Origin: Spirogloea muscicola
Lineage: Eukaryota > Streptophyta > Zygnematophyceae > Spirogloeales > Spirogloeaceae
Length of the DNA: 34,862 bases
Direction: 5' to 3'
Assembly (NCBI GenBank): GCA_009602725.1
Contig: WELB01000117.1
Location: forward strand, 167,583 to 202,444
Shown here piece after piece: positions 3,001 through 32,843 of this stretch. Position numbers and translations under genes: made by a program. The notes under the pieces were generated by a model. The model made no database searches, was not told where the DNA came from, and saw only the letters and a program-made list of their open reading frames with translations. Numbering within the stretch: position 1 is the first letter of the stretch; every line of letters starts with the position of its first letter.

Positions 3001-6000
3001 TATCTAGAGGTTCGTTGCATGTGCAAGCCTCCAGCGACAGCTGCATCCTCTCAATGGCAACCCATGTCTTTAATTGCAGCAGGATTCAGTACGTTGCTGT
3101 CCAGGGTGTTCATGATTGTTGAGGAGGCAGAAGGTTGCTGGGCTGACCCTGCCAGTGGCATGTATGTGCGTGCCAGTCTCTGCTGTCCTCAGGGCGCACA
3201 GAGAAGCGAATCCGGGGCGCCCTGTGCGGCCAGTAAGGCTTGCGGAGATTCGCCAGCTCCGGGAGCTTTACAGTAGTGCCTATGCCCATTATCATCTCTC
3301 ACCACAGCAGCTCAGCAGGTGTGCCAGCAAGCGTAAACCCTAACCCCTAACCCTAAACCCTAAAACCCCTAACTGTTAAATTCTGGGACCTGCAGGCTAT
3401 GATGCAGACAAGCCTTCACAGCAATATAAATCTGGACGGCATGTTTCACGGTGATGACTGAGGTCTCAGGATTACAGCTTATAGGCTCAAGTTTGCCTTG
3501 AGAGAGCTATTATGTAGCATCAAACAGTGACAGGCATCATGCTCTTCGTGTCAACCTATTGCACGGCCCAGGGAAGAGAGGACTCTGATGCGGGAGGTGG
3601 AGACCTTAGTTGGTACAAAGATTACAGCTCTTATTCGCTGGAGAGTCGTAGCCGAGATGCGAAGGGCAGACTGGTCAAGACGCTGGCAGGTGCGCCATTT
3701 CTGTGCCCGCAACGAAATGGACTTTCAAAGAAGTATTGCCAAATATGTTAACCAGGATCTCCTTTGCTCAGTGTTCATCTACTAGCACCAGGCTGGAGCA
3801 TGACACTTAATACTCTGCAGAGATGCTAAGCACTGTGCCTAGAAGTTGCCCTGGGGTGGTCAGGCTGGGCGATTCGATGCATATCTCAAGGAGATTACAT
3901 CAATGCTGGACAACGTTGACCTTGTTCTGCAAGGGGTCAAGATATCAGGTTGGTTAACAGGACAGAGCTTCCATCTAGCTTGTATACAATGTAGACTGTG
4001 CAAGGCTTGCTGCAATGCCAGCCACTTTCTCAAAAGCACAACTGCACTTGTGCAGCAAAGGAAGCTGCAGCACCAACTGAATGTGATATTCAGCTGGCTT
4101 GCCCCCGGGTACGCAGTCACTGAGTTGGTAGTCTGTTCTGCTCAATCACATAGAAAGGAGGTGGCTGCTCGAAGTTTCAGGAGCCTTCAGCTCTGATGAC
4201 TTGGGCAGAAGGGTTTCTTCTAGGCAATACAGCTTCTTATGGGCCATTGGCATGGGCGGGACAGATTAGCCTACTTCTGTCCACGTCAGAGAGCTTGGAT
4301 TGGGGTGGAGAGGTGTCCATCAAGCAGATAGCAGCCAACATTCAGGTGAGTCCTTGCAACCATTAGATCTGCCGGATTTAGGTTTGATCGTGTGGATTTT
4401 GAAAGTATCTACTTAGCATTTCAAGTTGTAGTCCAACAATGAGTAGTCCAACATTGACTAACGTCTTCTTCTGTAATGTGCACAATTTGCAGGCCGGCAA
4501 GGCAGGAGTGAGGCTGGAAAGCGGCATCCGCGCCATGCTGATAAAGGATAGTCAAGCATCTCCGCAACCACATGGTTGTGACTTCATTCTATCTAGGCAA
4601 GTTTGTCACTCGGACTGACAACATGTCTTCCAATCACAGCCTCAACTACTACATCTATTTAGTTGCCATCCTGGCATTGCCTCTCAGCAATGCATTTTCA
4701 AAGATGGCTAGCACTAAGTTGGTCATATTTCTTGCAGTCCTGCTCAAGGGGACCAGACAGGAGCACCAAGTAAAAGTGGCCAGTACCTGTTCGTGTCCGT
4801 GGTCCTCCAGATGCCTTCCAAAAGTGCAGCTCTGGACACCTTGCCCAGCTTAGCTTGCCGCATCTCCGCCACCGACATTGTGTTTCTCCCAATCTGGACT
4901 TCACGTCTGCTTCTTCTTCTCGACTCGCTTGCATTGGTAAACATTCCGCCTGAATACCAGCGTGTGCCACACTTGACAGTAGATTGTTTCTTTAAGTTTG
5001 TCCTTGAAGTGCGTATACAAGCTGTACCAGAGCATGCGAGGCATGTTGTGCCTCTGTATGTGCACGGACCTGGTTGGTGTCTGAAAGAGGAAGTCCTGAC
5101 AGGGTTTTGTCCTTGTTCATTGGTCAGACTGGTCCTTCGGAAAGGGGAGAAGCAGGCCGGAAGCAAGGAGAAGGAGCGGCGGAGTGGATGCCTGACCTGC
5201 GGCGGCAGCAGCGGAGGTTCTTTCGCGGGCAGCAGCAGATGCAGGGTCCTGCAGAGGCCGCTGCCTTGCTGCACCCGAAGGTGGTTGTGCGCAACAAGGC
5301 CAGAAGGCCGCTCAAGCTTGAAGTTGTATCTGGCACCATACGCCTGCTTGTGCCGTGTCACGGCATGGTGAGTTGCCCATCAACAACCCCTTGGCTAACT
5401 GGATACTTGATGACATTGTTGGCACTCTGTGTACATTATTGATCTTGTGACGCATTGTTGGCTTTGTCAGGCTGGCCAGTCATCAGTAGAGAGTCCAATC
5501 CAGGAAGGTGTTGAAGCAGCCGGAGGTGGCTCAGAGCCAGGGCCCCACGCCCTACTCGTCATCATTGACGAGCTCTCTCTGCAGACTGAGCGGTGACCTT
5601 CCACCTCTGAAAAAAGTTGCACAAACTGAGCAGAGTTGCTTGCTTGATATTTACATGTGTGATGGCAGCGTTGCCAACTTGATGGACTTTGCCCTCTGCG
5701 CGCAGCCCTGTGAGCCACAAGCTTGCTCAATCAGGCCAAGAGGACACAGCTTGGATCATGAAGTACCACAGCCACAGCACTGCGCCACTCCGCTTCCAGA
5801 AGCTTTACTGCCAGCTGACGCTGGAAGCTTGCCTTGCCAGGACGCCAGACTTCTCGGACAGGTACTCTGTGAATGTCTCAAAGGGCTACTCATACCTGAC
5901 AGGTCATTTGATTCAGCATCAGTGTGTACTCTGAATGGGCTGTGACAGGCCTCCTTCGCAAACGCAAATCCGCCTGTGCAGGGTACCTATCTTGCAAAAG

Positions 6001-9000
6001 CTAGAGGTCTATGTTGCGCTCATCCTCTGCGCCCAGCCTGCGTCACTTACTGTCACGAAGGTGAATGCTCGTCCACTTGATCATATAGTGAGCGGAGGTC
6101 ATACATCAGGTCATATGATGACGTCTTCATCTTTGGATGAGCAATTTTCACTTACTGTCAATGAATACCACTCCCTATTGGATCTGGTCATCTGGTCCTT
6201 AAGCAGAGAGAAAGACTCTTCCAGTAGAGGGCGATGACTGAAATTGGCCAGCCCAGAAAAAGAATGAATGAAGTTCTAAGCAGGGTTCTCTCCCCCTGTG
6301 CAATTTCATCAGCTCCTTCACCTGTCTTTGAACTTCTCTACGATTTTGCTGCTGGTGTCACCTATTGCTGCAGCCGAAGTGGCACGTTTGAAGCAAAGGT
6401 TAGACCAATTATGCTACAATCCAGTCCAACTCTTCCCTTCCATGGAATGTAATCGCCAGTACTGCACAGCACCTTTTATCCTGCGCATAGGGCATCTGGG
6501 CATGACCAATTTTCACTCTAGTCCACTTGAAGCAAGTGTTTGGATGCTGAGACTTGCCAATCTTTGAACTTAAAGCCTGACAGACATCAGCAAGAGCCAT
6601 GGGCAACGGCCAACCCGTAGTGCTGCCAAGCCAAGTGGGAAAAGCTCAGGAGGAGGAGGGCTTGTTTGGCTTCTTGAAGTGCAGGTATGGACAAGGAGGT
6701 CCAAGTGTGCATGATCTTTCCCTCTCCCTCTCTCCCCCCCCCCCCCTCCCCACCACCCCCTCTCCCTTGCACTCGCTCCATGCGCTCTTGCACTGAAAAA
6801 AGCATGGTCTGTAACTCTTGTACTCATGGCAATGATGATCGGCATTGATGGGTGCACAAAGCTGTTCACAGGTGCCAGCTGTAGCAGTGAAGGTGCTGCA
6901 GTGGAGACCTGAGCTGCATTCAAGGATGTGTGGCTGCGATAGCTGCGATGACAACAATGAGATCTGCTGGCTGGATCGAGAAAGGCCTCTCTATCTTTTC
7001 CAGCTCAGCTTGCTCAACGTCGTTGTCAAGAAGCTGGGCGAAGGGGTCAGTTCCTGTTTCTGCACTGTGTTGATTGTCAGCTGTTGCTGTGCAAAGTCGC
7101 TTTCCAGGTATGCCAACACGAGCGAGAGAAAAGTCTTCCAGTAGAGGTCGTACACGAGCCAGCATGCAATGAGCTGATGAATATTGCTACTGACTTGCAG
7201 TTGAAGGTCCTGGTGGGTCTGGGTGGGCTGATTGCTGCAGACCTCCAATTGAAGGTACTGCTTCAAGATTTCACGGTCAAGAAATGAGAGGCAGCTAGTA
7301 ATGCCCTTTTCAAGCCCAGCAATGATCTACTTCTACTTTGTAATGTGTAAGTAAGGCTGACATGGGGCAGAGTCATGATGTCTGTGCCATGCATGATTTT
7401 GCAGCTTGACCTGCCAGAAAGCTACATCATCAGCCCGTTGCTGGAGTATGAAGGCGACAAGCTTCACCGCCTCCAAAGAGTACTTTATCTTTTACTTTCG
7501 CCCATTCTTGTATCATCAGTCATAACGCGCTTAGCCGACATGGTACACACGACTTATTCTGCTGATACAGGTAGTAAGGAAGTGGAGGGAGGCTGCTGCA
7601 GCCAGAACGGGACGACCTAGGCGAGACGCGGCCAGTGGAATGACAAGTTTCGTACGTCAGGTTGGCAGCTCACACCTACGCAACTCATGTCATGCCTAGT
7701 TTGAGTCCCTCATTGTGCTGAGGAGTAAGGGGCTCATGCGCATTTGGTCAATGTGTAACGTCTCGATGCAGATCAACACGCAAGTTCTTATGCAGCCCAT
7801 GCGACCCACTATTGTGGACGTCCACATCACCACCATACCTGTCTGCTGGTAGGCTGTCTAACTATCGCCAAGGCTGTGAGGTGAAGGCAACACACGAGGC
7901 TCTATAACGGCTGGTTTTCATGCTGGTTTTCATGTACATTATGATGTACATTACCAACAGAATCAAATCACACATTCTATGTGCAGGAGCATAGGCTGAT
8001 TCATTCAAAATGCGTTCATGCAGCCACCTTGAGTCCATGGTTGATCTTCTCCATTGCTTTAGCAAATTGAAGCGAGTTGTCAGCAAGGTGGTCATCAGCT
8101 CCAACGCAGTCAAGAGCACGTCAAGCCAGGTTGAGAGTACCCAAATTCAGAAACCTGCAGAACTAGTAACACAATCAGCAAGTGACGGTCCAGACGGCCC
8201 GTTGTGGAGGATTGGGCAACCTGGCCTCAGCGACCTGTCGCAGAGCTTCTCTTTCTTCAAGAACCCCATTGCAGAACCAGAGCAGCCTGAGGACACTACA
8301 GTTGAGGATGTCCACTTTGAGGTCCTGAGGACAGACGCGGCATCGCAGCTCAGAAACAGGCCAGCAAGCACTTCAGGCGACCTGGCGGCGCAGTTGTTCC
8401 AGAAGCACGCGGGTAACAGAGAGACGGGGCTTTCAGCCAAGGGCTTGCAGCTGAAACTACAGCTGGCGGCATTGGAGCTGAGGGTGGGCACGCTTGATCA
8501 CGCCTTCATGAAGCTCACAGCCGGAGGAGTGCGCACGACATTGAGCACTGCCGGGACACCCGAGCAGCACAAAGACGGAGGCAACGATTCAAGGAGTAGA
8601 GATAGAGAAGCAAATGGCAAAGGCGCGGAAGAGAACAAGGGAGGGCTGTTCCTTGTGCTACAGGTCAACACTTTGAAGGTTGAGGACCTCTGCTTCAAGG
8701 ACAAGAAGTACCGCTACATTGTCTCCCCGCAAGGCAGCCTTCCTTCTGTCACGGTGCAGATCAGCACACGCCACGAGCAATGGGTCTCTTCTCTCCCTCC
8801 ACTTCCCCAGGTACTGGGCTTCTCACTGCCGGTCAATTACATTGACATCTGGAGTCATCGAACTATGGTCTGAAGGACACTCGCAGCACTGAGGCTGGTG
8901 TTGTTAGTAGCGTATGACTACTTTCTTATTGCAAAAGGTCATGGTGGTTGCTTTCTGCAGATGAAGATCTGGGTGGAAGGCAATCAGTTGAGGCTTGTGG

Positions 9001-12000
9001 TTATCCTGAGGTTTATCAAAGACATAATCTTCCTCATAGCACGACTGAAGGAGCTCAGATCCAGAGGTGGTACCAAAGCGAAGCCACCACCCAAGAAGAT
9101 CTCATCTGAGGGTCCATTGAATAAATACTCTCTTCTCATATACATCACTCTCTGTGACCTCACAGCAATGATGGCAAGGTCTGAAGCTGGTGCCCTTGCC
9201 CCCTGAGTATGGTCAACTGCACACACGGCCTTTCACTGTGATACCCTGGTGGCAAGAACCTCACCTAAATATATGCAGTATTGGGAAGCTAAGGCAGCTA
9301 AGGCCTGTCCAGCAAGTACATTGTCAGTACTTGTCCACTAAGCAAGAGGGTCCAGGCTGATGTGATCTGAGTTGCCAATGTCCAGGCATTCGTGGGAAGA
9401 AGAAAGATACGAGATTCGAGCCCGCAAGGTTGCCTGCACGATTCCCAGCGTTCCTAGTGTCCAACTCGCGGAGTACTATTGTCGCCAGCTCGGGAATATC
9501 CCGTCAGAACACGCCCAATTTGCCATGCCACCAGACTTCTGGAGGCCCTTCCAGCACACTCCCGGCACGCGTCCTACGATTGCTATCCACATGATGGACT
9601 ACTGCTTCTACTATGTCAGTCCAGAAGGTGTAGACCGGCCATGCACTACAGGCAGCAGTGATGTCTCTGCCATCATCCAGGTATGCGAGTGCAGGTATTT
9701 CATACCTGGACAATGATAGGACATGCATAGCGCATCCAAGATTAATTGCAGTGTGCTTACCTTTGTGAGCTACCTGCTGATTTTAGTGGAATATGCTTCT
9801 TAATTTGGAGAGACTTCATTGCGCCAGGTTCATCCATTTCGTCTACGAGTTTTATGGACGGAGTTTGTGTGCATCTTCGGGGAGATACAGTATGCCCTCC
9901 TAATGGGCCTTATCTTTGACCAATCCGAGGAGCCAGGATCCTATGCAGGTACACTGCTAAATACCCTACATCTTCTCAATCCTCATTGCACCTCAGGTGA
10001 CTGATCTCAGCTAAGTGCACCACCAACATGTGTTTCATGCTTGTGCCAGGTCCGGAGCGGGGGTTTAACCCATACGTGGGTCAAGTGCAGGGAGGTTTGT
10101 TGAGCGATGTTGTGCCAGACACAGACCTCACTGGCATGCAAGCCTCCTGGGAACTCCGGTTTGAGGTCGTCAATGCCACTATCACGGTGGAGATGCCTCC
10201 CAAGCTCCTCCCCCACTTTGGTCGAGGAGAGCCGCTGAGCACGGTCGCCATCCAGAAGCTGAAGGTGACAGTGGGAAGCTACTGGCCCCCACCCCCGACG
10301 TCACGCTTCCTGGAGCTGATTGTCAGTGGTCACAGTGTCGCAATCACTGATGACCGCTTTCAGAGTGTCACGCCCGTGCCTCTGGAGATCGTAAGGTGCC
10401 CCCACGATGTGAAGTTTGGCTCCAGGGATGCTGACAAGTTGGGGGGCGATCAGCTTTGCACAGCGGATTACAACACCTTTGTCCTGCAATATGCCATCAA
10501 GAAGAATCACACGCACGCCATGGAGATCACGTTGCTTCGCTGCAGCAAAATCTGGGCGTACTTTTTCCACTTTGGATATGTGAGGGCGATCATTGACACG
10601 TTTGCGGGCTACTTCTTGAAGCCCCTGTGCGCCTTCGGTCCCAGGAGCTTAGATCCTGACAGCTTCTTCTTCATCAATGTCATCACTCAGGTGCCCATCA
10701 CTTTCACAGCATCCCTAAGTCTCCCTGTAGTCATGGCATCTTTGCAGTGGCTTCTGTTCCTCTTGTTAGCATCTTACGTAACGTTGTCTGACTCGCAGGA
10801 CTCAGAGGCCTTCCTTCCCATCCCCGATCCAGCGATAGCAGCTGAAGGAAGGCTTTGGAACCTAGATTCAGATGAGGAGCATGACGAGGTCTGGCGGTTT
10901 GTGTACGAGGTGGGGGTGTGGAGCAGCGCATTGAGTACTTACTTCCTCAACATCAGAGATCAATCACTTAGGCTGAGATCCAAGACAATGCGAGTCTCTT
11001 ATAGCTGGGGAGGGGATAAGAGGTCCAAGCTCCGAGTGGACTTGGTCGGATCCAGGGCCTGCCAAATTCACCAAGTAGAGGTATTGGCTGTATCCACATC
11101 CTGAATAATGAGCATTTGGACCTAGAGTTTATAAGTGCCTAACATGGACAAATCACAAATGAACATGAAGTTGTCACCTAACGTTGGCCTTCACTGCATA
11201 TTTGCACATTGATTTGGCTGATAAGGGGACTACCATCTCCGCTTTCATCAATCTATGCAGGCATTTGCTTTGAGGGACTTCTTAGGCCCGATGGATGCGT
11301 CGTTCCAAATGGACGTGCATGTGCCAAAGCGTGGCAATTCTCGAAGCACCAAGTTCCTGTTCGATTGCTCTGTGCAGTCTCCTGACAAGCCCAGGAGCTG
11401 TTTGCCTATCTATCTCGTCTTCTCGGTATTGCACCTTACATTGTCCTTTCACGCACACATCTATGATTGAAGGATATGTTGGATTCCCTTGTTTACAGTC
11501 CTTATGATTGACCTGCTGCTCCTTTTGTTGCCAGCACATAACGCTTGTTAAAGCTGCCGTGGAGGTCCTCTTTCTCCGCCTCCGTGAGAAAGCAGACAAG
11601 GACACCCGTTCCTTAGAATCAAGGCCTTTCCTGCCGTCTGCTCTTGCTGTCTCTGTCAACCTAGACAAGCTAGCTCTTGCTTTGGTTGACGACAGGTGAA
11701 GAGCGTCTCTCCTACAGTCACTCACACTCTGCCTTTCAGCTGCTTTTTGCTAGCTGCTAGTTGTACTGGGAGGCCTTCAGCTACCAATTTGCTTGCCAGA
11801 GCTCTCAAGCATATACCATGTTGCACCCAGAGAGCACCCAGTGCAAGCAGATATACTGGGGCTGTACTGATTGACACTCAGTAGCTTGGTCTCTGTCATT
11901 GATTGATTTTGACTGCAGTGCTTTGTGGTGACTTCCCGGCAGGCTAGGGACGCCAGCCACAATTCTGGAAGTCATAGCAGACACATTGAGTTTCTCCTGG

Positions 12001-24000: not shown

Positions 24001-26238
24001 AGTCAGAGGCCGGCAGATGCACAGGAGACTCTTATCAGGGGGGCTCAGGTACAGTGCTATGCTTACTTACCTTCTCAGGGTTGCTCTTGCCTAATGGTAA
24101 ATGCTTGATACAGTGTGCTCTTGCAAGAACAAGGCAGAAGCCTGCCAAATCTCTTACGCACTCCATCAAATGCCACAGGACTTGGGTGCGGGCTTTTATG
24201 AGGGTATCACAGGACTAGTTACGAATCCTGTTGCTGGTCTTGAGCATGGAGGGACAGTTGGTTGCGTCAAGGGCGTCGGCAAAGGAATGGCAGGTACAGC
24301 ACTGAAGAATTTATGCCGTGCTTGACTTTACAAGAGCTTATTCTTGCTCCCTGGAAGTGGGCCCCTTAGACAAAGCGCACACGTCTATAATGGCAGGGAC
24401 TTGTGGTCAAGCCGGCATCTGGCATATTCGAATTCACTTCAAAGACAACAGGAGGGATCGGAAGCGGCATTCAGTCGCTAGGCGATGACGTAGTTAGAGC
24501 ACCGCGCCAGCGATCACGAGCGCCGCGCACCTTTGGTCAAGAGAGCGGTCTTGAGGTATGACAGCCCCCCTTGATGTTGATGCTGTGGCACTCTGTAAGG
24601 AGTGAGGACATCAATAAAGTAGAAAGAGAATAGCAGGGCATATGAGTTGACAGATGTTGATTGGGAGAAACAAGGACGGACGATTCTCCACCTCAATTAC
24701 TGCCACTGTTGCTCCCAACCAGTGAAAAGGTAGTGCTGCATGTGAGCTAGCGCAGGCCTCGGCAAGTTGATTGACTCTGCTAGATAAACAATCTGTTGGT
24801 GCCTGATGGTCAGAACGTGGTTGACACCCTACTTTGATGCATTATCTGGGCATACTTGGCTGGGCCGCAGATGGCATCCCAACAACTTGAGCAGCTGAAA
24901 GATGTGTTGGACCAGCTTGATCACGGCAAGTATCGGGATGAGAAGATTGTTGACTTCCTGCAGACAAAAAGCAACAAAGCCGTGATGCTCACCAGCAGCC
25001 GGATCCTGTACTACAGCACCGTGCAACAGCACCTGCGCTGGCAGATACCATTCTCAGGTCTCTTAGGACCTCATATCCTACGCCCTGAGGTTTTGTCTGG
25101 TGTTGGACATTTGAGGTGGCAGGACAACAAATTCACTGACATGCATGCTCTGAGTACACACCAAGTAGTGGCTGCGGCAGCGCTTGAAGCATCCTGCCTC
25201 CTCGTGCAGACATATCGTCGATTGTGGCCATGGAGGGCCGGCTTGAGGTGATCATCATGTCGTCGCACGCCCTGGGTGTCCGTGGTGTGCACCTGAGTGT
25301 GAAGGTACCGCGGCGGAGCACCGTCAAGTGCTCCACGCGCAACCTCCACCAGTCCCTCCTTGTCAAGCTCAACAAGTACTGCCCCACGCCCATCGCAGTG
25401 AGCAGTCTCCAGGGGGTAAAGGATACGGTAAGTTCCTCAAGTGCTTGGTTTTATCAGCTGTGTGTCATACAAAGCTATCAGATGCCCATCACTAGGCTTT
25501 GGCTCCAGGGTTCTATATCGTCATATCATGATTATGCAGGCTTATTGCTCTCAAGATTGATAGGCTTTACCTGGTTTTACGAGTCAGGTGAGCGAGGCCT
25601 CCGTGAAGACCACCACCGGTCGACTCATGGCCAGCATTCCGGGCATCACCCAGCTAAAGAGCATGATGCAGCATAAGAAGGGCGGGAAGAAACCCCAGTT
25701 TGCATCGCCGCCGCTGTCAAGCGTGCAGGCCGAAGACGATGCCGCCAGCCGGCTTTCCATTGCAACGACCGCGCCTGCGGAAAGCCTGATCTCCACGAGC
25801 CACCCTGAGTTGTTGCCCGTGTTGGAAGAAGCAACGTCCAATGGCGGGGCCAAGGCTGGCGGCAGCGCCCAACGGAATCAGTCTTCGGAGGCTGCATCTG
25901 CAGACGCCCTTTACAGAGAAGTCATGCAGGAGCTCACAGCCATTCAGGCTGTGGCCAGGGCGCCGCCAGCGAACATGCAGCCCGCAATGATGTCCGTCAA
26001 GATTCTCTGCAACAGCCTGCTGCAGCGCCTTGAGGGTCAAGCTGGCAAGGGCTCTGCGGTGGGCCCAGTTGACGGCGTCGTAGCCCTCTTGCAGTGCATT
26101 GAGAGCGTGGCAGAGCAGTCTGCCCGCGAGCCGTCTGACAGGGCCGCAGCGTCGTTGGACGCTATTGCTGCTCTCTGTAGGCAGGCCATGCAGCACGCGC
26201 AGGCCGAGCTTGGCGCCAAGGCTGAACCTGCGGCATGA
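3..26238 (+). CDS. VPS13: VPS13-family bridge-like lipid transfer protein, multi-exon, 5' partial
   Basis: A giant gene of about 78 exons, roughly 12.3 kb coding (about 4,100 residues), beginning before the window and ending at a TGA at 26236-26238. Exons supported by splice sites and continuous phase include 3-144, 254-334, 657-772, 874-994, 1218-1342, 1480-1533, 2831-2894, 3193-3318, 3572-3689, 4493-4596, 4738-4936, 5128-5367, 5471-5592, 5706-5861, 5982-6060, 6313-6398, 6591-6684, 7201-7254, 7405-7479, 7571-7651, 7772-7848, 8024-8810, 8961-9178, 9386-9680, 9828-9948, 10050-10690, 10799-11080, 11261-11425, 11535-11695, 11943-12093 and 12272-12499, then those listed under the domain entries. 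Family hallmarks are LDALDLPFAAK, AWWRHA, FSPYWIINETG, ILGSVDFLGDP and VMDFFVEPAKA. Known role of the family: bulk lipid transfer at membrane contact sites. Exons are unresolved at about 1930-2600, 2895-3192, 6685-7003, 15272-15809, 16589-16774, 17248-17411 and 18248-18414. Family assignment is very secure; the exact exon list is a manual model. Confidence 0.93.
474..549 (+). repeat. imperfect (AGT)n trinucleotide microsatellite in an intron
   Basis: Irregular AGT/TAG triplets run through this stretch inside VPS13 intron 335-656, with interruptions such as GATCACAA and AAAAAG. Likely length-polymorphic; no function seen. Confidence 0.8.
2037..2062. repeat. perfect 11-bp inverted repeat with 4-nt loop
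   Basis: Arms ACGTCACTTGA and TCAAGTGACGT flank the loop GTAG. It lies in a poorly resolved, probably intronic stretch of the VPS13 gene (1930-2500), where I could not place exons with confidence. Confidence 0.85.
3335..3373 (+). repeat. interstitial telomere-type tract in a VPS13 intron
   Basis: About five degenerate CCCTAAA-type units (variants CCCTAA, CCCCTAA and CCCTAAAA) lie in intron 3319-3571. The tract starts 16 nt after the GT donor. Flanking exons 3193-3318 and 3572-3689 join in phase (AG plus G gives Arg), so the intron is well defined. Confidence 0.92.
4595..4602 (+). other. GC-AG intron donor in the VPS13 gene
   Basis: Exon 4493-4596 ends ...TCT AG followed by GCAAGT. Splicing here to 4738 (AG plus T gives Ser) keeps the frame into PAQGDQTGAP. 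The nearby GT at 4601 would leave phase 0 and break the frame of the next exon. AG|GCAAGT is the classic GC-donor consensus. Confidence 0.75.
6717..6774 (+). repeat. polypyrimidine tract with 13-C run in an intron
   Basis: A CT-rich tract with an uninterrupted run of 13 C at 6734-6746, just inside the intron after exon 6591-6684. It is a likely length-variable, error-prone spot; no coding potential. Confidence 0.8.
12684..18247 (+). other. VPS13 adaptor-binding (VAB / SHR-BD) domain exons
   Basis: Exons 12684-12737, 12885-12965, 13090-13192, 13334-13509, 13778-13964, 14112-14305, 14488-14658, 14830-14947, 15062-15120, 15248-15271, 15810-15942, 16047-16217, 16457-16588, 16775-16937, 17153 to about 17247, 17412-17520, 17866-17981 and 18122-18247. 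Five repeats each show the invariant Asn: ENQTG (codon at 13159), TNCST (13901), SNALP (14869), INETG (15868) and KNRTG (16556). Other signatures are FSPYWIINETG, SIPLDTVGIKG, KVVTITPRFVL, WSGAFDIDKAGE and APYAWDK. In VPS13 proteins this domain binds short adaptor peptides that recruit the protein to a given organelle. The region 15272-15809 probably hides one or two more exons. Exon 15810-15942 starts with a very basic patch (SKRSRQRR). Confidence 0.88.
18415..19326 (+). other. coiled coil and long disordered linker of the VPS13 protein
   Basis: Exon 18415-18517 encodes a charged helix (EDEHKEQVWKHIKFLEEK) that looks like a coiled coil. Exon 18563-19405 then gives about 250 residues rich in Glu, Ser, Pro and Ala with no recognisable fold, ending at the start of the first C2 domain. 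The intron I place between them (18518-18562) is only 45 nt. Minus-strand open frames over the same span are shadows of this biased composition. A linker here would let the C2 domains reach a membrane away from the rod; that is inference. Confidence 0.65.
19327..20114 (+). other. first C2 domain of the VPS13 protein
   Basis: Exons 19327-19405 (end of a longer exon), 19664-19819 and 19968-20114 join in phase 0 to give a C2 domain: GDLQVSVVGGQKL, then SPYAVVE, KTASPEWHEELSF, VKVTVYDHELLGRDSFLGE and a closing strand SGSIALAFSW. C2 domains bind phospholipid headgroups, often with calcium held by Asp residues in loops 1 and 3. Loop 3 keeps Asp residues (YDHELLGRD), but loop 1 reads EDGCSPY rather than the usual SDPY, so calcium binding may be weak or lost. 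That reading is inference from the motif. Confidence 0.88.
20308..20487 (+). other. Gln/Glu-rich coiled-coil linker between the C2 domains
   Basis: A 60-codon exon, in phase with its neighbours, encodes a helical stretch (LEQLEELLAIQREREMQQQ) followed by a Ser/Pro-rich segment ending in QFGQLE. It separates the two C2 domains. No function is recognised. Dimerisation through the helix is possible but not shown. Confidence 0.7.
20600..21640 (+). other. second C2 domain and following exon of the VPS13 protein
   Basis: Exons 20600-20800, 20947-21018, 21205-21255 and 21374-21640 join in phase 0. They encode VKVVEARHLPVP, the strand AYATITCEDKPTQKT, FFPVWNETFF, LKIE-LFDHLSVGADEFLGE and YFWLKLHQH, then GEVRLRLHW. 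The fold signature is clear. Loop 1 (HMRNAYATI) lacks the usual Asp pair, while loop 3 keeps two (LFDHLSVGAD), suggesting a calcium-independent C2 domain. The rest of exon 21374-21640 (HLLLKQETG to TIILLQK) leads into the conserved C-terminal region; it could instead contain a short unspotted intron. Confidence 0.85.
21726..23297 (+). other. conserved C-terminal VPS13 channel block
   Basis: Exons 21726-21824, 22002-22103, 22192-22416, 22583-22657, 22834-23018 and 23171-23297. The translation reads like a textbook VPS13 carboxy half: ISLSVVDNLPREML (family iGiSlVd..p.Ei), LQVDNQLLTTQVPVV (family IQiDNQl....PVvl), ILYFKSFQLMLQEADL, WYFERLHIQPVRINVTF (family YFE.L.i.Pi.i.lSF) and RHYILQALQEIHKILGSVDFLG split across the final exon (family HY....l...ykiLGS.D.LGNP). 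GNP is here GDP. This segment closes the lipid channel next to the C-terminal membrane-facing helices. All listed junctions keep phase. Confidence 0.93.
23540..24555 (+). other. VPS13 C-terminal helical (ATG2_C-like) domain exons
   Basis: Exons 23540-23613, 23730-23879, 24009-24048, 24179-24293 and 24397-24555. Signatures are SLGTGVMDFFVEPAKA, EEFLKGTMAGS, VGKGLALLSFDDDY, GFYEGITGLVTNPVAG, KGVGKGMA, GLVVKPASGIFEF and RAPRTFG. In VPS13 and ATG2 proteins this amphipathic helical region inserts in the acceptor membrane, for example at lipid droplets. The join between 24293 and 24397 is one base out of phase with the conserved reading (see findings). All other joins fit. Confidence 0.92.
24871..26238 (+). 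other. PH-like C-terminal domain and tail of the VPS13 protein
   Basis: Exons 24871-25057, 25210-25415 and the terminal exon 25588-26238. The first gives QLKDVLDQLDHGKY and NKAVMLTSSRILYYST, matching the VPS13 C-terminal pattern of a short helix followed by 'lit..rvl'. The second gives VAMEGRLEVII and VKCSTRNLHQSLLVKL, the end of a PH-like fold. The last exon encodes a Lys-rich turn (HKKGGKK), a disordered segment, and a helical Ala-rich tail (LYREVMQELTAIQAVARA onward) that is longer than in common VPS13 proteins and which I do not recognise. The stop is at 26236-26238. Confidence 0.85.
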
Positions 26239-27119
26239 CTGGTGGACTTACTCGATCACATTAGTCTAGATAGTCTTTGCGACAGTTTGTAGCATTGCCT
26301 TTGTGCCATCCTTTGGGCTGGCTCCTATTCTTTGGTTGACATATTTAACGATCCATGTCATCTTCCCCTGTGTCGAAATTGCTACTTTAGAATCCGCTCT
26401 CAGAAAGCTTGAAGGTGTGCCACAGGTTCCACAGGCAGTGGCGCCGATGCTTGTGACCATTGTTGCTGCAGGAAGCAACTGCAATTTGCACTTTTAAGGG
26501 TACGGTGAGCTACACTCCTCCATCGTATAGCGCCCCTCCTCCCCCCCAACTTTCCCTCCCCTCCGATGCTTTCTCCTCGTTGTCTACAGGTTCTTGACTA
26601 GCTACACACTAAGGGCTCTTGTAGCCTAGTTGATTGTAGAGTGCTGAATTGTGAAGACAGATATTCACATGCAGCACATTCAAAGTATCTGCTCACTGTC
26701 CACGGGGGTGCCCTTAGTCATTGCCCATTCGTAAGCCCAAGCAATTGCTCACATCAAATACCACACAACGTCTCCGCCAGACGTACTGTAAGAAGCTACG
26801 GCTGGTCGAAGTGCCATGAGCTGCACATGCATCAAACGAGTTGCATACTTGACAGTGCCCTGAAAGCATAAGCCTCCTCCAATACACTGGGGAGCAGGAG
26901 GGACCTTGAAGCCAAGTCTTGGCTCATTTGGCAGCCCCAAGTTGTCAACGTCCTTGGCTTTTCCTTGATCTTGTAGTCATGAGGAAACAGGTATGCTAGG
27001 AAGCTGGCATGAAGAGCACACGGCACCAAGAACAGCTACCAGATATTCAAGCAAATCATGCAACTGTAAGCGCATGCTTGACTAGCCTTGTCAATCCCAA
27101 CAGTCTTACTCAGCCTTAT
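26239..27119 (+). other. VPS13 3' untranslated region and spacer, no gene seen
   Basis: After the VPS13 stop there is no convincing coding sequence. A pyrimidine-rich stretch occupies about 26515-26580. TGTAA, the usual green-algal poly(A) signal, occurs at 26788-26792 and again at 27065-27069; either could end the VPS13 transcript. Short open frames here, such as one at 26303-26497, match nothing I recognise. Confidence 0.5.
26788..26792 (+). promoter_or_regulatory. candidate TGTAA poly(A) signal of the VPS13 gene
   Basis: First TGTAA pentamer after the VPS13 stop codon, about 550 nt downstream. Green algae commonly use TGTAA. A five-base match is weak evidence by itself. Confidence 0.3.
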
Positions 27120-27555
27120 TAAATGCCTCTTCGCTGAGAGAAGAGCTCTTCTAGAGGGGGGGCCTCTCTGATCTGCGGCTGCTTAGCAGAGGTTACTGAG
27201 TGATTCGTAGCAGCTATGCTTCGTTTTGTGCTTGCTTTCCTTAGCGCTTCCCCCTCTCCTTAATGGGCGAGCCCTTTGTCTTCTAGAGGGGGGGCGAGGG
27301 CTGTGAAAAGCCAGCCACAAGAGTTTGACAAGTCCAAAGTGCGCAATTACCACTCTTGGCTGCACGTCCTTATATGAATCCCCACGTATGATCCATCAGT
27401 GCTGTGTTGGACCCACTTATGCACTGGCCATGGTGGAGTGGCATTTACTAGTTAAAGACTGACCTCACAAACCTTCGCCCGAGCTCGTCCATCAGGCCTG
27501 CTACTAGGGCTCGTCATGGCACCCACATCCACCACATGAGAATGCCATTACTTGC

Positions 27556-28440
27556 TTGGCTTCTCCAAGGTGGCCTCATTCTGGCGCCTTCCGCCCAACA
27601 CTTGCCTCGACTGTCGTGGTTGTTGCCGTCAACTGTCAAAAGCGGGCCAAGCTCTTTGTTGCTCTGGATTCCCTCTGGTCAACGGCACACGATTGGCATC
27701 TGCGTGCCGGTCGCGCCCTGGCTGCAGCTTCTAGCTTTAGACAGGGGACCTGCTACCCGGAGACTACTTTCTCTGACTTGCGGCTGCTCACTAGGAAGGA
27801 TTGAGCACCCACGTGCCACTTGGATCGCGGTGTGCTTTCAGCCCTTTTCTGGCCCCTTCGATTTCCGTTCTTTCTGTTTCTGGGCTGGCGCATCACAGCC
27901 ATCCCCCTCTGCTGGAAGATTCTCTCTTTGGGCACATTAAGTTGGCTGTCCCCTCTGGGCCCTGCTGTTTGACGCTTGGCGTCGTGGTCAGGGGGGCAGC
28001 TTGGGACCTCAGCACTATGTCGTACATGGCACTACCCGAGAGGCTGATACCGATCAGTGCTCCTCAGCAATGCCCATCCTTGTGTTTGTGGACGCCCTTG
28101 ATACCGCACACGTTGACTGCACCATTTCCAAGTGGTTCGCAACTCTTGGCCTCCATTTTGCCATGGAATCTCCTACTGAGCAATACAGGGCTGTTCTGGG
28201 GTGGTGAAGAGCTGATGCTATAGCATCCACTCTTCATTCTGCTTGCAGCACTCGCGAGCTACTGTGCCACAGTTGGTAAGCTGGCCAAGCACTGGCTGCT
28301 GCACCGCTCTTGCCAGGGCGAACGTAGGCGCGGCTTGATGTATCAGGTCTGAGGCCCATGGTCATTGAGTTTCTCTGGGCTGGCACTGGCACACATCGAC
28401 AAAGAAGCCACTGGCAAACATGGGTGAGAGCACAGAGGTG
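27556..28440 (+). pseudogene. possible degraded coding remnants interrupted by repeat copies
   Basis: Two stretches read like protein but match no family I recognise: about 27600-27740 (STVVVVAVNCQKRAKLFVAL) and 28001-28207 (MPILVFVDALDTAH, then ISKWFATLGLHFAMES). They lie in different frames, and a repeat copy (about 27740-27930) separates them. They could be remnants of a gene or element, or chance open frames. A third scrap near 28345-28430 (GLRPMVIEFLWAGTG) is similar in kind. Confidence 0.25.
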
Positions 28441-28660
28441 AAGCGCCTGGAGGCTTGTAGCCCAGTCGTGGCCACGGTGTGCAAGCGAGCTGCGATGGAG
28501 CAGCCGGCCACACTGCCTTGCCCATGCTCCTTGCTCCGTTTGTGGGCTGCCTTTTCATAGCCTCGCCCCTTTGCGAGAGCTGCTTCCTCTGCTGGCAGCT
28601 AGTTTGTCGGATCTGAGGCTCCTCACTCGTAACTACTGAGTGATCCATCCTCCCCCTGTG

Positions 28661-28918
28661 CTGACATGACATCTTCAGGCCCCTCTGTAGCTGCTAAACG
28701 CTTGTCGGCCCCTCCGAACCCTTGTCAATTCTTTTTGGGCTGGCTTATCACAGCCCTTGCCCCCATTTGGAGTGCCACTTCTTTCAGTTCTGACATAACA
28801 TCTTCCGACCCCTTTGTAGCTGCTTCACGCTTGTAGGCCCCTCCGAACCTTTGTCAATTCTTTTTGGGCTGGCTTTTCGCAGCCCTTGCCCCCATTGGGA
28901 GTGCCACTTCTTCTGCTG
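28661..28918 (+). repeat. 129-bp tandem duplication inside the repeat cluster
   Basis: Units 28661-28789 and 28790-28918 are near-identical head-to-tail copies. Both start CTGACATRAC, share CCCCTCCGAAC and GTCAATTCTTTTTGGGCTGG, and end with GTGCCACTTCTT. They differ by scattered substitutions, so the duplication is not very recent or has drifted. Confidence 0.88.
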
Positions 28919-29053
28919 GGCCCTTTCAAAGAGCTTCTTCTCTGTTGACAGTCATTTTAATTTGCGGCTATGACCAGGGAGCCTCTCTGTCCTTTGCTGG
29001 GTGGTCGATTGCTCCTTTCCAAGTTGGGGCTTTCCCCATGACCTCCCCAGTCG

Positions 29054-29063
29054 TTTAGGGTTT
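29054..29063 (-). promoter_or_regulatory. telo-box-like AAACCCTAAA on the minus strand
   Basis: The plus strand reads TTTAGGGTTT, the reverse of a plant telo-box, within the repeat cluster. No gene start is nearby on the minus strand, so a promoter role is unlikely. Ten bases could occur by chance. Confidence 0.2.
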
Positions 29064-31611
29064 GCCCTTTCTCAGCCACCGCCTCCTCGTACGGTGTGCA
29101 TGTGATGGAAGGGAGGCCAAGCAGAGCCAGTAGTTGTTAAGGCACGATTTAGTGCAATGGGGCTACTAAAAGCGAAGTCCTAGAGGGGCTATGGTAACAG
29201 GGCGAGAGAAACAGCTGTTTTAATATAAGGCAATGGCTGTGAGAGGCCAGACCAAAAGGTACGTACAAGGTCTGAAAGGGCGAAAGCACAGCTGGAGGGG
29301 GACTACAGTACCCACAAACTGAGCACAACAACTTCGACAGGCTTGCGCCCAGCACGCTGATGAATGGCTAAGACTGAAAGGTATGCAATTTAAGCAAGAG
29401 CCGCATCCAGTAAGACGCAACAATGCCTGCGGAGTGCCAGTCTGCCTCAAGCTGCACCTATAACTACGATGGCGCAATTGAGAGCATTCCCGAGGGTGGC
29501 GATGGTGGTGAGAGGCCAGCCCAAAAGAAGTGAGCTAGTACGAAGGGGGCGGGAGCTGTGAAAAGCCAGCCCAGAAAGAATGGACAAGGCTCATAAGGTG
29601 TAGATCTTCAGAAGAAAGGGCTCGCCCATTCAGAGGGGGCGAGGGCTACAGAGGTCCATACAGCAGGGGGACGCCAACCCGGCTGCTAGTACTTCTGACT
29701 TGCAACTAACATTCTCCATTCTAATCTGGCCGATCACAGTTATCGCCTTCTACTGGAAGAGTCTTTTTCTCCTTTACTAGGGGTCACTGAGCGGCCATCC
29801 GCATTAATTTCTCCCTGGAAGAAGGAAAGAAAGGAAAGGACAGGCGTTGAGTGTACGCCGGACTTGGCCCTAGACCTTGTCCAATTTTGGGCTTGCCATC
29901 CACAGCCCCCGCCCCCTTTTGAAGAGCTCACTTCTTTAGACAGACGAAGAAGAATGCAGCTGCTAATAATCAAAAGAGCGGCTGTAAGAGACCAGCCAGA
30001 TGCATACAGGTGCTCATGACGGAGCCACCAGGCTAGGCAGACAGGGCGCTCTTAGTACCCCCGTGTCAGCAGCAGTAGGAAGTCAAATGAGCTGAGGGGA
30101 GGAAGAGCAACCCCGCTGCGCAAGTCAGAGGCTGCTGCAAGGGTGCGACCGGCTTGGCGGTGCAAGGCAAGCGCTTGGGACCGCTGTAGGGACATAGATA
30201 AACGCATGCGGTAGTAGGACACAAAACTCAGAGGCACTGAGCCTCCAGGAAGTGCGAAGAAAGATAGTGGCTCTTCCAAAGAAGAATGTGCTCGCCCAAG
30301 GCAACAGCTCTTCCAGTTTATGGCAATGGCTGTAAGAGGCCAGCCCAAAGGAATGTACAAGGCCTGAAAAGGCCGGACAGCGAAAGAAGAAGAAGTGCTC
30401 GCCCATAGAGGATAGGGGCTGGGAAAGGCCAGCCCAAAAAGGATGAACAAGTCACGAATGGGCCAGGGGAATCGCTGTAAAGCTAGCACAGAAGCAACTA
30501 AGCAGCTACGAAACACTCAGTGACCCCTGCTAAGCAGCCGCACGTCTGAGAAACTGGGCTCCTGTTAGCAGGTCCGCTGGCCAGGGCCAGAGGCAGCAGC
30601 GAAGCAGGATATTACTCTCCAAGACGTCAGCAAGAGGCGCTCAATAACCTCTAGTCCGCAAGTGCATTTCAGAATAACCAGAGGGCGGAGAAGCGTCGCC
30701 CTGACCGAAGTCGGAGGCAGCAGCCAAGGCGCCGAGCAGCCAAGCAGCCGGAGGGTGCGAGGGCTGTGAACAAGAAGAAATGACGCTTCCAGGAGAGGGC
30801 AGTGGCTGTGAAAGACCAGCCCAAAAACAAGATGAACAAAGTGCGGAGGGGCCAGGGAAAGCTCAAAAGCACACAACGAATGAAATAGCTACGAGAGCCA
30901 CTTGGGAGATCCACTTCTTCGCTTAGCAGGGGTTACTGAGTGCTTCATAGCTGCTTAGTTTCTATTTGTGCTTTGTTTTTCTTAGTGCTTCCCCTGGCCC
31001 CTTCTCGTACTTTGTTCATTCTTTCTTGAGCTGGCATTTTCCAGCCCCTATCCTAAATGGGCGAGCTACGAAGCAATCAGTACCCCCTGTTGAGCAGCCG
31101 CAGGTCGGAGAAACTAGTCTCCTTTCTGGCTTTTGAACATTGTCCAAAGGCCTTTTTGGGCTGGCTTTGCCAGCCCCTCTTCTCTATGGGCGAGCGATTT
31201 CTTTCTCTGTCTCCGGTACAGCCACCCCGAGGAAACCGTGAAGTCACGTACAATAGCACGGAAGGTACTGTGCGTCCTCACGCAATAGTACCTGTTATCG
31301 GCTTTAGCTTTTTTGGCGCCTTCCGGCCCTGTACAATCTGTTCGTGGCCTCTAACATGCCCCCTTCCCCCGATCCCTGAACCCCTCCGTCCCGGGACCTT
31401 GTACATTCCTTTGGGCATGGCCTTTCACTGCCTTTGATTTGGAAGACTCTTTCCCAGTAGGATGGGAAGTAAGCTCATTCGGGGGGGCAACCGGCTCCGC
31501 CTGGAAGTGTCCACGTCGGCGCACGACACGCCGGCCGGCGGGCGGGCGGGCGGGCGGCGGCGGCGGCGGCGATGAGGGTGCCAAGAGACGCGGCGGCAAC
31601 TGCGGCATGGA

Positions 31612-32843
31612 ATGCGGCGGCGAAGGCGGTGGCGACGGCGGCGTGCCGCGGCGGCCCTCCGGCGCCGACAGGGACTGGCAGCGGAACGAGCGGCTGGGGA
31701 GCGGCACCCTTCGGGCCGCGTTCACACTGGCATGGGCATCCGACGGCGCAGGTCCCCCGGCCGAGGCCCAGATCCACGGCGCCGAGGGGCCCGGGCCGGC
31801 GGTTCGCACGACAGCAAGTGTGAACCGGGCCCAGGAGCTCCCGTCCTCCTCCCTTCCTGGCGACATGCAGTCTTGTCCGTCCGTACGCTCTCCTCCCTCG
31901 CCGCCGGCGGCCTCTGTCGCGGCGGCGGCGGCGGCGGCGGCGACGGCTGCGGCAGCGGCAGCGGCGGCGGCGGCGGCGGCGGCTGGGGCCTCGCCGGCGC
32001 GCTGCTGGCCGACCGCGTCGTGCTGGAGAAGCTCAGTGTCCGGCGTTGCGCCTTCCGCCGCGGCGACGTCGTCGTCCTCAGGTCCTCCCCTCTGCCGCTA
32101 GCTCGGCCTCCACGACGGCGCCTTGCCGCTGCCGCCGCCGCCGCCGCGCATGGCGCTGACCCACGACGGCCTTGCCGCCGCCGCCGCCGCCGCTGCGCAG
32201 GGCGCTGACCCACGACGGCCTTGCCCATGCCACCGCCGCCGCCGCCGAGCTTTGCGCTGACCCACGACGGCCTTGCCCCGCCGCCGTCGCCGGGCATGGC
32301 GCTGACTCCTTGGCGGCGGGCGGCGCCCCCAGGTCGCCCGAGGAGCGCGGCGCGCTGCTGGTCAAGCGGCTGATCGCGCTGCCGGGGGACTGGGTGACCG
32401 TCCCTGGGAGCTTCGACGTGGCACAGGTGCCGCAGGGCCACTGCTGGGTGGAGGGCGACAACGCCGCCATGAGCTGCGACTCCAAGCACTTTGGCCCGGC
32501 AAGCCTCCGCCGCAACCCTAACCCCTTAAACCCTAACCCTAAACTCCAAAGCCATGAGTAACGGCCGTCGCCACACTGCTGCGGCGGCCATTGAGAACTG
32601 TGTGTCACTTCCCTTCTACGGGTCAGGTTCCGCCTTATGGGGTCCACGCGTGTGCCTGCAGCCGACGGCAGCGTGCGGTGCTGACTGCCATCTCCGTCTG
32701 TCGTGGAATTGCTGTGTCGCGCGTGGCAGGTGCCGCTGGCGCTGATAGAGGGCCGCGTGACGCACATCGTGTGGCCGCCCCAGCGCATCGGCCGCGTTGA
32801 GAGCCACTTGCCTGAGGGCCGAGTGCTGCTGCAGCACCAGTGA
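31612..32843 (+). CDS. IMP2: mitochondrial inner membrane protease subunit 2-like S26 peptidase; 5' part uncertain
   Basis: Exon ending at 32081 gives LLADRVVLEKLSV then RRGDVVVLR. Exon 32333-32498 gives SPEERGALLVKRLIALPGDW and CWVEGDNAAMSCDSKHFGP. Exon 32730-32843 gives VPLALIEGRVTHIVWPPQRI and the stop at 32841-32843. These match plant IMP2: RGDVVVLRSPE, the catalytic Lys in VKRLIAL, box GDN...DS..FGPV, and the C-terminal VIWPP.RIG. IMP2 cleaves intermembrane-space sorting signals at the mitochondrial inner membrane. Phases agree (AG plus G gives Arg at the first join; phase 0 at the second, through a GC-AG intron). The frame is open upstream to an ATG at 31612 giving an Arg-rich start, but the Gly-x-Ser-Met catalytic serine block is not found there. 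The true start and first exon are therefore unknown. A chloroplast S26 relative is less likely. Confidence 0.82.
31920..31982 (+). repeat. GGC/GCG trinucleotide run in the IMP2-like 5' region
   Basis: Near-continuous GCG/GGC triplets encode Gly or Ala runs depending on frame. A shorter CGG run lies at about 31540-31572. Such GC-rich repeats are prone to length change and assembly error, which may explain the missing 5' exon structure. Confidence 0.75.
32106..32310 (+). repeat. 45-52-bp minisatellite in IMP2-like intron
   Basis: Intron 32082-32332 is largely tandem units anchored by GCGCTGAC(CC)ACGACGGCC and TTGCC plus variable GCC runs. Anchors start at 32154, 32202, 32254 and 32299, giving periods of 48, 52 and 45 bp. 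A diverged leading copy begins near 32110. Confidence 0.85.
32497..32504 (+). other. GC-AG intron donor in the IMP2-like gene
   Basis: Exon 32333-32498 ends GGC CCG followed by GCAAGC. Joining to 32730 gives FGP-VPLALIEG in phase 0, exactly the family sequence. No GT donor fits at this codon. Confidence 0.8.
32514..32543 (+). repeat. interstitial telomere-type tract in an IMP2-like intron
   Basis: About four to five degenerate CCCTAAA-type units (CCCTAA, CCCCTTAAA, CCCTAA, CCCTAAA) lie in intron 32499-32729. They start 15 nt after the GC donor and have the same orientation relative to transcription as the tract in the VPS13 intron. Confidence 0.92.

Follow-up and report, generated by a model that had tools for sequence, protein, structure and literature searches.

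Two intronic telomere-type tracts of Spirogloea muscicola are probably ordinary short interstitial telomeric sequences

Introduction

The closest described counterparts of the sequences reported here are the short interstitial telomeric sequences (short-ITSs) of mammals. None of the human short-ITSs lies in an exon and 31% lie in introns, matching random insertion (PMC7215372), and in rodents and primates they arose by one-step insertion at breaks with microhomology (PMC2246262). Plant genomes carry telo boxes, or short interstitial telomere motifs, in which the telomere word is dispersed in and near genes; each consists of one unit plus one base, and they are enriched in 5' untranslated regions and accompany site II or TEF boxes (PMC3022908). 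Internal telomeric repeats are also on record from a green alga, Chlamydomonas reinhardtii, where they are described as a Bal31-insensitive band of about 200 bp and as repeats in genome sequences rather than by placement in introns (PMC6549138). Here, we analyze two degenerate CCCTAAA tracts in a 34,862-nt stretch of DNA from the zygnematophycean alga Spirogloea muscicola (assembly GCA_009602725.1, contig WELB01000117.1, positions 167,583 to 202,444 of the forward strand), which we refer to as the window. One tract lies in a predicted intron of a VPS13 gene and the other in an intron of an IMP2-like gene.

The Spirogloea tracts resemble the mammalian short-ITSs, as those are described in PMC7215372 and PMC2246262, in being short internal telomeric arrays, decayed with age, several of which lie in introns while none was seen in a supported exon. 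They differ in having a plant-type unit and in being denser: a loose word count puts them at about 11-16 per Mb, and stricter rules give a count of 229 in human, two figures that are not directly comparable. The difference from telo boxes is that the tracts here are longer, decayed arrays, several of which lie in introns between coding exons. In a literature search, no title or abstract start named a study of telomeric tracts near splice donors or a miniature inverted-repeat transposable element (MITE) with a telomeric palindrome, which is no proof of absence.

Results

Two telomere-type tracts in introns of the window

Cyclic alignment of the window to the telomere repeat, with eight dinucleotide shuffles of the window as control, yielded two tracts with scores of 28.5 and 25.0 (tracts 1 and 2; Table 1), compared with a best shuffle score of 11.0. 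These are the only telomere-like segments on either strand that score above 11.0, the next best reaching 11.0. Each is an internal run of several copies of the telomere unit that also occurs at contig ends of this genome, which is what characterizes a short-ITS. The original prediction, made from the sequence alone, had placed degenerate CCCTAAA tracts at 3335-3373 and 32514-32543, with the C-rich strand in the transcript. Our analysis recovers both with slightly shifted limits (3334-3372 and 32514-32553) and the same orientation, and each begins 15 nt past the first base of its intron.

The claim that both tracts are intronic holds by homology for one and by reading frame for the other. The joined IMP2-like exons match Pfam Peptidase_S26 (5.4e-9, residues 15-55), and the junction after residue 40 lies within the match, which gives both the IMP2 intron and the GC donor support by homology; the name IMP2 is a reading by eye, the Pfam support being for Peptidase_S26. 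The gene spanning about 1-26 kb was identified as VPS13 (Pfam VPS13_VAB 5.7e-9, C2 8.9e-9), with both matches elsewhere in the gene than the tract intron. The exon pieces flanking this intron have no Pfam match, and the upstream piece also has no PDB match. The intron itself contains stops in all three frames with open frames on either side, and it is predicted on that reading frame.

Beyond the tract, the two window introns have nothing in common better than E 0.29, and their remainders (tract excluded) gave zero matches at E 1e-3 to the 189 loci analyzed. Introner elements would likewise yield many introns with a common sequence; the window introns differ in sharing nothing beyond the tract. 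The original prediction had also linked each tract to a GCAAGC hexamer just upstream. The hexamer is present in both places, the second time as the donor itself, but the link to the tracts did not hold: GCAAG within 40 nt upstream of tracts is not enriched in either of the two genome samples described below (6 vs 5.2 and 6 vs 5.3 expected). As GCAAG is not enriched before these 154 tracts, the hexamer before tract 1 is probably a coincidence.

Abundance of tracts in the genome

We searched the genome of 153.1 Mb on 471 contigs. Plain CCCTAAA repeats occur at contig ends (C10:1-28, C22:22-77, C29:3-33), and the telomere therefore looks plant-type, (TTTAGGG)n. This repeat and the presence of a Tic22 gene would suit a plastid-bearing alga, and the chlorarachniophyte of PMC12730881 (GC 27%, TAACCC) is no match for the genome. 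The exact word CCCTAAACCC has 3,633 genome matches, compared with 166 for the reversed word, and two 14-nt tract words have 134 and 128 matches against one for each reversed control. On contigs C1, C2, and C3, as far as the listed matches extend, merging CCCTAAACCC matches within 400 nt of each other gave 73 separate places in 6.02 Mb, or 11.0 per Mb net of chance. Provided that C1-C3 are typical, we estimate about 1,700 places genome-wide. Only 58 of 82 tracts picked by another word contain CCCTAAACCC, so the actual total could be about 2,400. The units within tracts are of mixed spacing (6, 7, and 8 nt in 93, 177, and 100 cases). Both the telomeric nature of these sequences and their dispersal through the genome are direct observations.

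At this density, 0.39-0.54 tracts are expected per 34.9 kb, and 6-10% of such windows would hold at least two. Two tracts in one window are therefore unremarkable, contrary to the original prediction, which had considered them unlikely by chance. A different internal array, long and perfect, lies at G000:C27:905787-906313; its strand switches from G-rich to C-rich on the forward strand, an arrangement that may reflect two ends fused head to head or an inversion introduced by the assembly.

Position of tracts relative to splice donors

A shared distance from the donor had been taken as a sign of non-chance placement. In the two window introns, the nominal chance of such a position is 0.053 and 0.057, and the feature was picked post hoc. 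We therefore turn to two samples of tracts, each drawn from the 100 places listed for one word. Set 1 comprises 98 loci fetched from the 134 matches of CCCTAACCCTAAAC, a word held by both window tracts, and was reduced to 78 by dropping 15 members of a repeat family plus L067, L073, L087, L094, and L083. Set 2, the replicate, comprises 80 loci out of the 128 matches of CCCTAAACCCCTAA and was reduced to 76 by dropping L105, L115, L149, and L150, giving 154 pooled loci. These removals took out the repeat family and duplicate loci; some sampled loci contain runs of N.

Within 40 nt on the 5' side of the C-rich tract, set 1 has AGGT in 22 cases vs 10.1 expected, the first among all 256 4-mers, and AGGTNNG in 11 vs 2.7. 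The replicate shows no enrichment (AGGT 13 vs 10.9, rank 76 of 256; AGGTNNG 1 vs 2.6). Pooled by side, AGGT counts are 35 (5' sense), 22 (3' sense), 15 (5' antisense), and 21 (3' antisense), with an expectation of 21. AGGT density 5' of tracts is 6.0 per kb at 0-25 nt, 4.7 at 25-50 nt, 5.3 at 50-100 nt, and 3.5-4.1 farther out; the excess is thus spread across 0-100 nt, and the two samples show no sharp donor offset.

We also searched the whole genome for four patterns in which a donor-like word and a tract word are separated by a 2-30 nt gap. Raw matches number 85 for CAGGT 5' of CCCTAAACCC, 80 for ACCTG 5' of CCCTAAACCC, 125 for CAGGT 5' of GGGTTTAGGG, and 44 for ACCTG 5' of GGGTTTAGGG. Removal of overlaps leaves 81 for the first and 39 for the last, and removal of overlaps and decayed-telomere motifs leaves 28 of 76 (ACCTG-CCCTAAACCC) and 36 of 89 (CAGGT-GGGTTTAGGG; 100 of 125 listed) among the matches listed. 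The donor-like word is about twice as common 5' of C-rich tracts as on their 3' side, a weak effect. In 25 of the 81 CAGGT matches, a set that includes near-identical copies, the tract begins 12-15 nt after the donor-like GT, a peak not seen in the two samples. The +5 base is G in 23 of the 81, unlike in a strong donor, which is not decisive as the donors of this genome look weak. Across the four genome patterns and the two samples, a donor-offset rule was positive in the first sample, negative in the second, and weak when pooled, and we rejected it. The two intronic tracts are real, the non-chance geometry claimed for them is not borne out, and their equal spacing in one window is most likely a coincidence.

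Genes beside tracts

Donor candidates and protein-like open reading frames (ORFs) adjoining tracts were examined singly, and 40 loci chosen by eye (22 C-rich and 18 G-rich in the transcript) were submitted to Pfam and PDB searches. At E up to 0.0094, 18 of the 22 C-rich and 6 of the 18 G-rich loci were supported by a match to an adjoining ORF (24 of 154 in all); the stricter count, above the Pfam cut-off or with a PDB match at 1e-4 or better, is 13 vs 3 (p 0.021). Matches at L021, L039, L071, L130, L144, L092, L142, and L161 fall below Pfam's curated cut-off, and genes read by eye and lacking search support (e.g., L003, L045, L128) are excluded from the counts. Without a database test, protein-like ORFs adjoin 42 C-rich and 49 G-rich tracts when low-complexity ones are removed and 51 and 61 when they are kept, in sets that include many non-genes. 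These ORF counts give no orientation bias, unlike the supported loci, and a C-rich excess is tentative. A codon-usage gene finder was also tried and dropped, as it collapsed onto GC-rich sequence and scored known exons low.

As the original prediction would have it, further tracts lie in introns, 8-33 nt past the donor, in genes read as HslV, AK6, phosphatase, SerB-like, GLTP-domain, release factor, and Tic22 (Table 1). Pfam supports the C-rich intron cases on at least one side of the tract, and the downstream exons of the HslV, AK6, Metallophos, HAD, GLTP, and RF-1 genes were recognized by eye in translations. The intronic position of several copies, and the occurrence of both orientations beside genes, are thus observed directly. 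C-rich tracts also sit just before acceptors (L046, L048, L021). Among the 15 supported loci that were found by ORF composition (L021, L038, L039, L046, L048, L092, L093, L100, L142, L144, L154, L159, L161, L162, L170), two tracts lie no more than 40 nt downstream of a predicted donor (L154, L162) and at least three no more than 40 nt upstream of a likely acceptor (L021, L046, L048), which is about what random placement in short introns would give. At none of the 24 supported loci was a tract seen within a supported exon, in a survey made with no annotation and no systematic exon test.

Homopolymer A or T runs of 120-124 nt lie beside gene-like sequence at L024, L097, and L104. In the VPS13 region (window 1000-26300), sense-strand AGGT is in excess (169 vs 102), yet the +5 base is G or T almost equally often (46 and 49), and donors there look weak. 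Window positions 28661-28912 and 30388-31203 hold a 129-nt tandem duplication and further pieces resembling a dispersed repeat of L135.

Table 1. Tracts, host introns, and related features; positions refer to the window unless a contig or donor is named
Feature	Position	Strand or orientation	Description	Evidence
Tract 1	3334-3372	+	degenerate CCCTAAA/CCCTAAC/CCCCTAA repeat, C-rich in transcript	cyclic alignment; Tandem Repeats Finder (TRF)
Tract 2	32514-32553	+	degenerate CCCTAAA-type repeat, C-rich in transcript; cleaner part 32514-32543	cyclic alignment
VPS13 intron	3319-3571	+	GT-AG, donor GTGTGC, acceptor CAG; contains tract 1	reading frames and splice dinucleotides
GCAAGC hexamer 5' of tract 1	3327-3332	+		sequence
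End of IMP2-like exon preceding intron (S26 signal peptidase type)	32380-32498	+		Pfam Peptidase_S26, joined exons
IMP2 intron	32499-32729	+	GC-AG, donor GCAAGC (32499-32504), acceptor CAG; contains tract 2	Pfam match across junction
IMP2-like last exon including stop codon	32730-32843	+		Pfam on joined exons; sequence
Proteasome-family gene, read as HslV	tract 33 nt after donor	C-rich	intron about 340 nt	Pfam
AAA_18 gene, read as adenylate kinase 6 (AK6)	tract 21 nt after donor	C-rich	intron about 140 nt	Pfam
Metallophos gene (phosphatase)	tract 9 nt after donor	C-rich	intron about 600 nt	Pfam
HAD gene, read as SerB-like	tract 8 nt after donor	C-rich	intron about 460 nt	Pfam; downstream exon also Pfam 0.0012
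GLTP-domain gene (L130)	tract 12 nt after donor	C-rich	intron 93 nt	weak Pfam match, 0.0094
RF-1 gene (release factor)	tract 15 nt after donor	C-rich		Pfam
Tic22 gene	tract about 8 nt after donor (by eye)	C-rich		match 1.9e-21 across junction
Utp13 gene	clean tract part late in intron	C-rich	intron roughly 310 nt
DGAT1 (L175)	tract 10 nt after predicted donor	G-rich in transcript
P5CS (L154)	tract 34 nt after predicted donor	G-rich in transcript
MITE copies: L080, L185, L188, and 15 further set 1 loci	e.g., G000:C45:664019-664486, C120:84927-85394		telomeric-palindrome MITE

Insertion and decay of tracts

The Tic22 paralogues L024 and L083 have first exons that are 97.7% identical over 128 nt and strongly diverged introns, with a tract at the equal place just past the donor whose length differs by indels. 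This comparison suggests that the insertion probably predates the gene duplication and that the tract changes fast. At L135, a telomeric stretch of about two units (around 298-338) lies inside a dispersed repeat of which the copies at L061, L063, and L087 lack it, a small filled/empty-site comparison. Direct repeats of 7 nt flank none of the 154 tracts (0.3 expected) and those of 5 nt flank eight (4.65 expected, control maximum 8); target duplications are at most rare, and some are possible.

A MITE family with a telomeric palindrome

Of the 98 loci fetched with CCCTAACCCTAAAC, 16 form one repeat family. Its paired ends are about 470 bp apart (23 listed pairs span 461-503, mostly 466-470), its termini are the 24-nt inverted repeat ACAGTCAAACCTTGTTATAGGCAC next to T (TA-CAGTC...GACTG-TA), and its interior is a telomeric palindrome, a G-rich arm followed by a C-rich arm. 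With up to 3 mismatches allowed, the terminal repeat has 127 genome matches. The telomeric part is absent from the four longer elements with these ends that were fetched (two of 1.76 kb, one of 2.2 kb, and one of 4.05 kb) and from one of 208 bp. The 4.05-kb element (L183) encodes a DDE_1 transposase (3.5e-26), and on the basis of this and the shared ends, the MITE apparently belongs to a DDE transposon family, which, with DDE_1 and TA ends, we take to be of the pogo/Tc1-mariner type. This MITE is a second route by which telomeric repeats are scattered.

Discussion

Intronic short-ITSs are a known kind of sequence and are apparently frequent in the Spirogloea muscicola genome. We consider it likely that both window tracts are ordinary short-ITSs that were inserted as breaks were repaired and that are tolerated as long as they stay out of coding exons. 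Plant-type telomeric DNA, (TTTAGGG)n, would have been put into a gene region, most likely during double-strand break repair, either by telomerase extension of one end or by capture of telomeric DNA, followed by end joining. The array would then decay into units of 6, 7, and 8 nt. Copies would persist in introns and non-coding flanks and be lost from coding exons, because both strands of the repeat contain a stop codon, which the 7-nt period brings into each reading frame in turn. The measured introns are short, from 93 to about 600 nt, so some copies must begin within tens of bases of a donor. We infer both the mechanism, break repair, and the filter, selection; analogy with the mammalian short-ITSs (PMC2246262, PMC7215372) makes break repair the likeliest origin. 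Among the origins that the original prediction offered, telomere-type DNA inserted in this way is the best, and intron gain and a splicing element would be less probable.

Several results weigh against this account. Random insertion does not predict a donor-side excess, which is seen in the pooled AGGT count on the 5' side of the C-rich strand (35 in 154 loci, with 21 expected; p 0.003), in CAGGT genome-wide (81 on the 5' side of C-rich tracts vs 39 on the 3' side; p 0.00016), and in database-supported genes, where C-rich transcripts outnumber G-rich ones (18 vs 6; p 0.023). Direct repeats of 6 nt flank 4 of the 154 tracts, where 1.3 are expected and the control maximum is 3. Break repair itself is inferred by analogy, and unlike the mammalian insertions, neither window tract has a known orthologous empty site. 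A weak donor-side and C-strand excess thus remains over after the break-repair explanation.

This excess could mean that C-rich tracts just past a donor are kept or favored, either because the opposite strand is harmful (UUUAG/GG resembles a 3' splice site, and the RNA may form a G-quadruplex) or because the C-rich strand, with branch-point-like words such as CUAAC, aids recognition of weak donors. Such retention would account for the surplus of CAGGT on the 5' side (85 vs 44 before removal of overlaps), the lower proportions in the other two configurations, the pooled AGGT count, and the orientation of supported genes on both the looser and the stricter count; 8 of 18 tracts in C-rich genes also start within 40 nt of a predicted donor. 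This last figure is inflated, however, as most such loci were sought via AGGT, and the loci found by ORF composition place tracts near acceptors at least as readily as near donors. The replicate alone lacks the enrichment, the excess is broad over 100 nt with no single offset, and protein-like ORFs show no orientation bias. Removal of G-rich copies near donors through acceptor mimicry by UUUAG/GG would be a simple cause of the leftover excess, but this is weakened because G-rich tracts near donors are at background and not below it (21 vs 21). The twofold donor-side and threefold orientation excesses are thus weak and in conflict with the other tests, and we regard selective retention as unlikely. 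Marginally less probable still is a more specific version, in which C-rich scraps within about 30 nt of weak donors have been selected as intron-definition elements, or intron seeds, with palindrome MITEs helping them spread.

The remaining alternatives fare worse. Introns born from telomeric DNA inserted at proto-splice sites might resemble that of the GLTP-domain gene, which is largely tract (43 of 93 nt), and the donor side is often only 8-15 nt ahead of the tract. In the other measured tract introns, of about 140-600 nt, the clean tract is a minor part, and the window introns are unlike outside the tract, with neither remainder matching any of the sampled loci; intron gain is therefore very improbable here. 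The MITE family shares the word CCCTAACCCTAAAC with the window tracts, and they could be its remnants, but the window holds no match to ACAGTCAAACCTTGTTATAGGCAC at up to 3 mismatches, and nowhere within 600 nt of a tract does a telomeric arm on the opposite strand score 9 or more, which makes such descent extremely unlikely. We attach just as little weight to telo-box-type regulatory elements of the plant kind, which have the word family in common (AAACCCTA) and in Arabidopsis are commoner in the first two introns (PMC3022908), since the window tracts are 30-40 nt decayed arrays and not single boxes.

With decayed telomeric scraps estimated at one to two thousand, several of them intronic, this genome offers a natural data set on how telomeric DNA enters chromosomes and whether splicing is disturbed. 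The analysis corrects an attractive but over-read coincidence, and it adds a transposon family with inverted telomeric arms as a second scattering route. Should C-rich scraps near weak donors prove to act in intron definition after all, telomere-derived DNA would have been recruited into splicing in Spirogloea muscicola.

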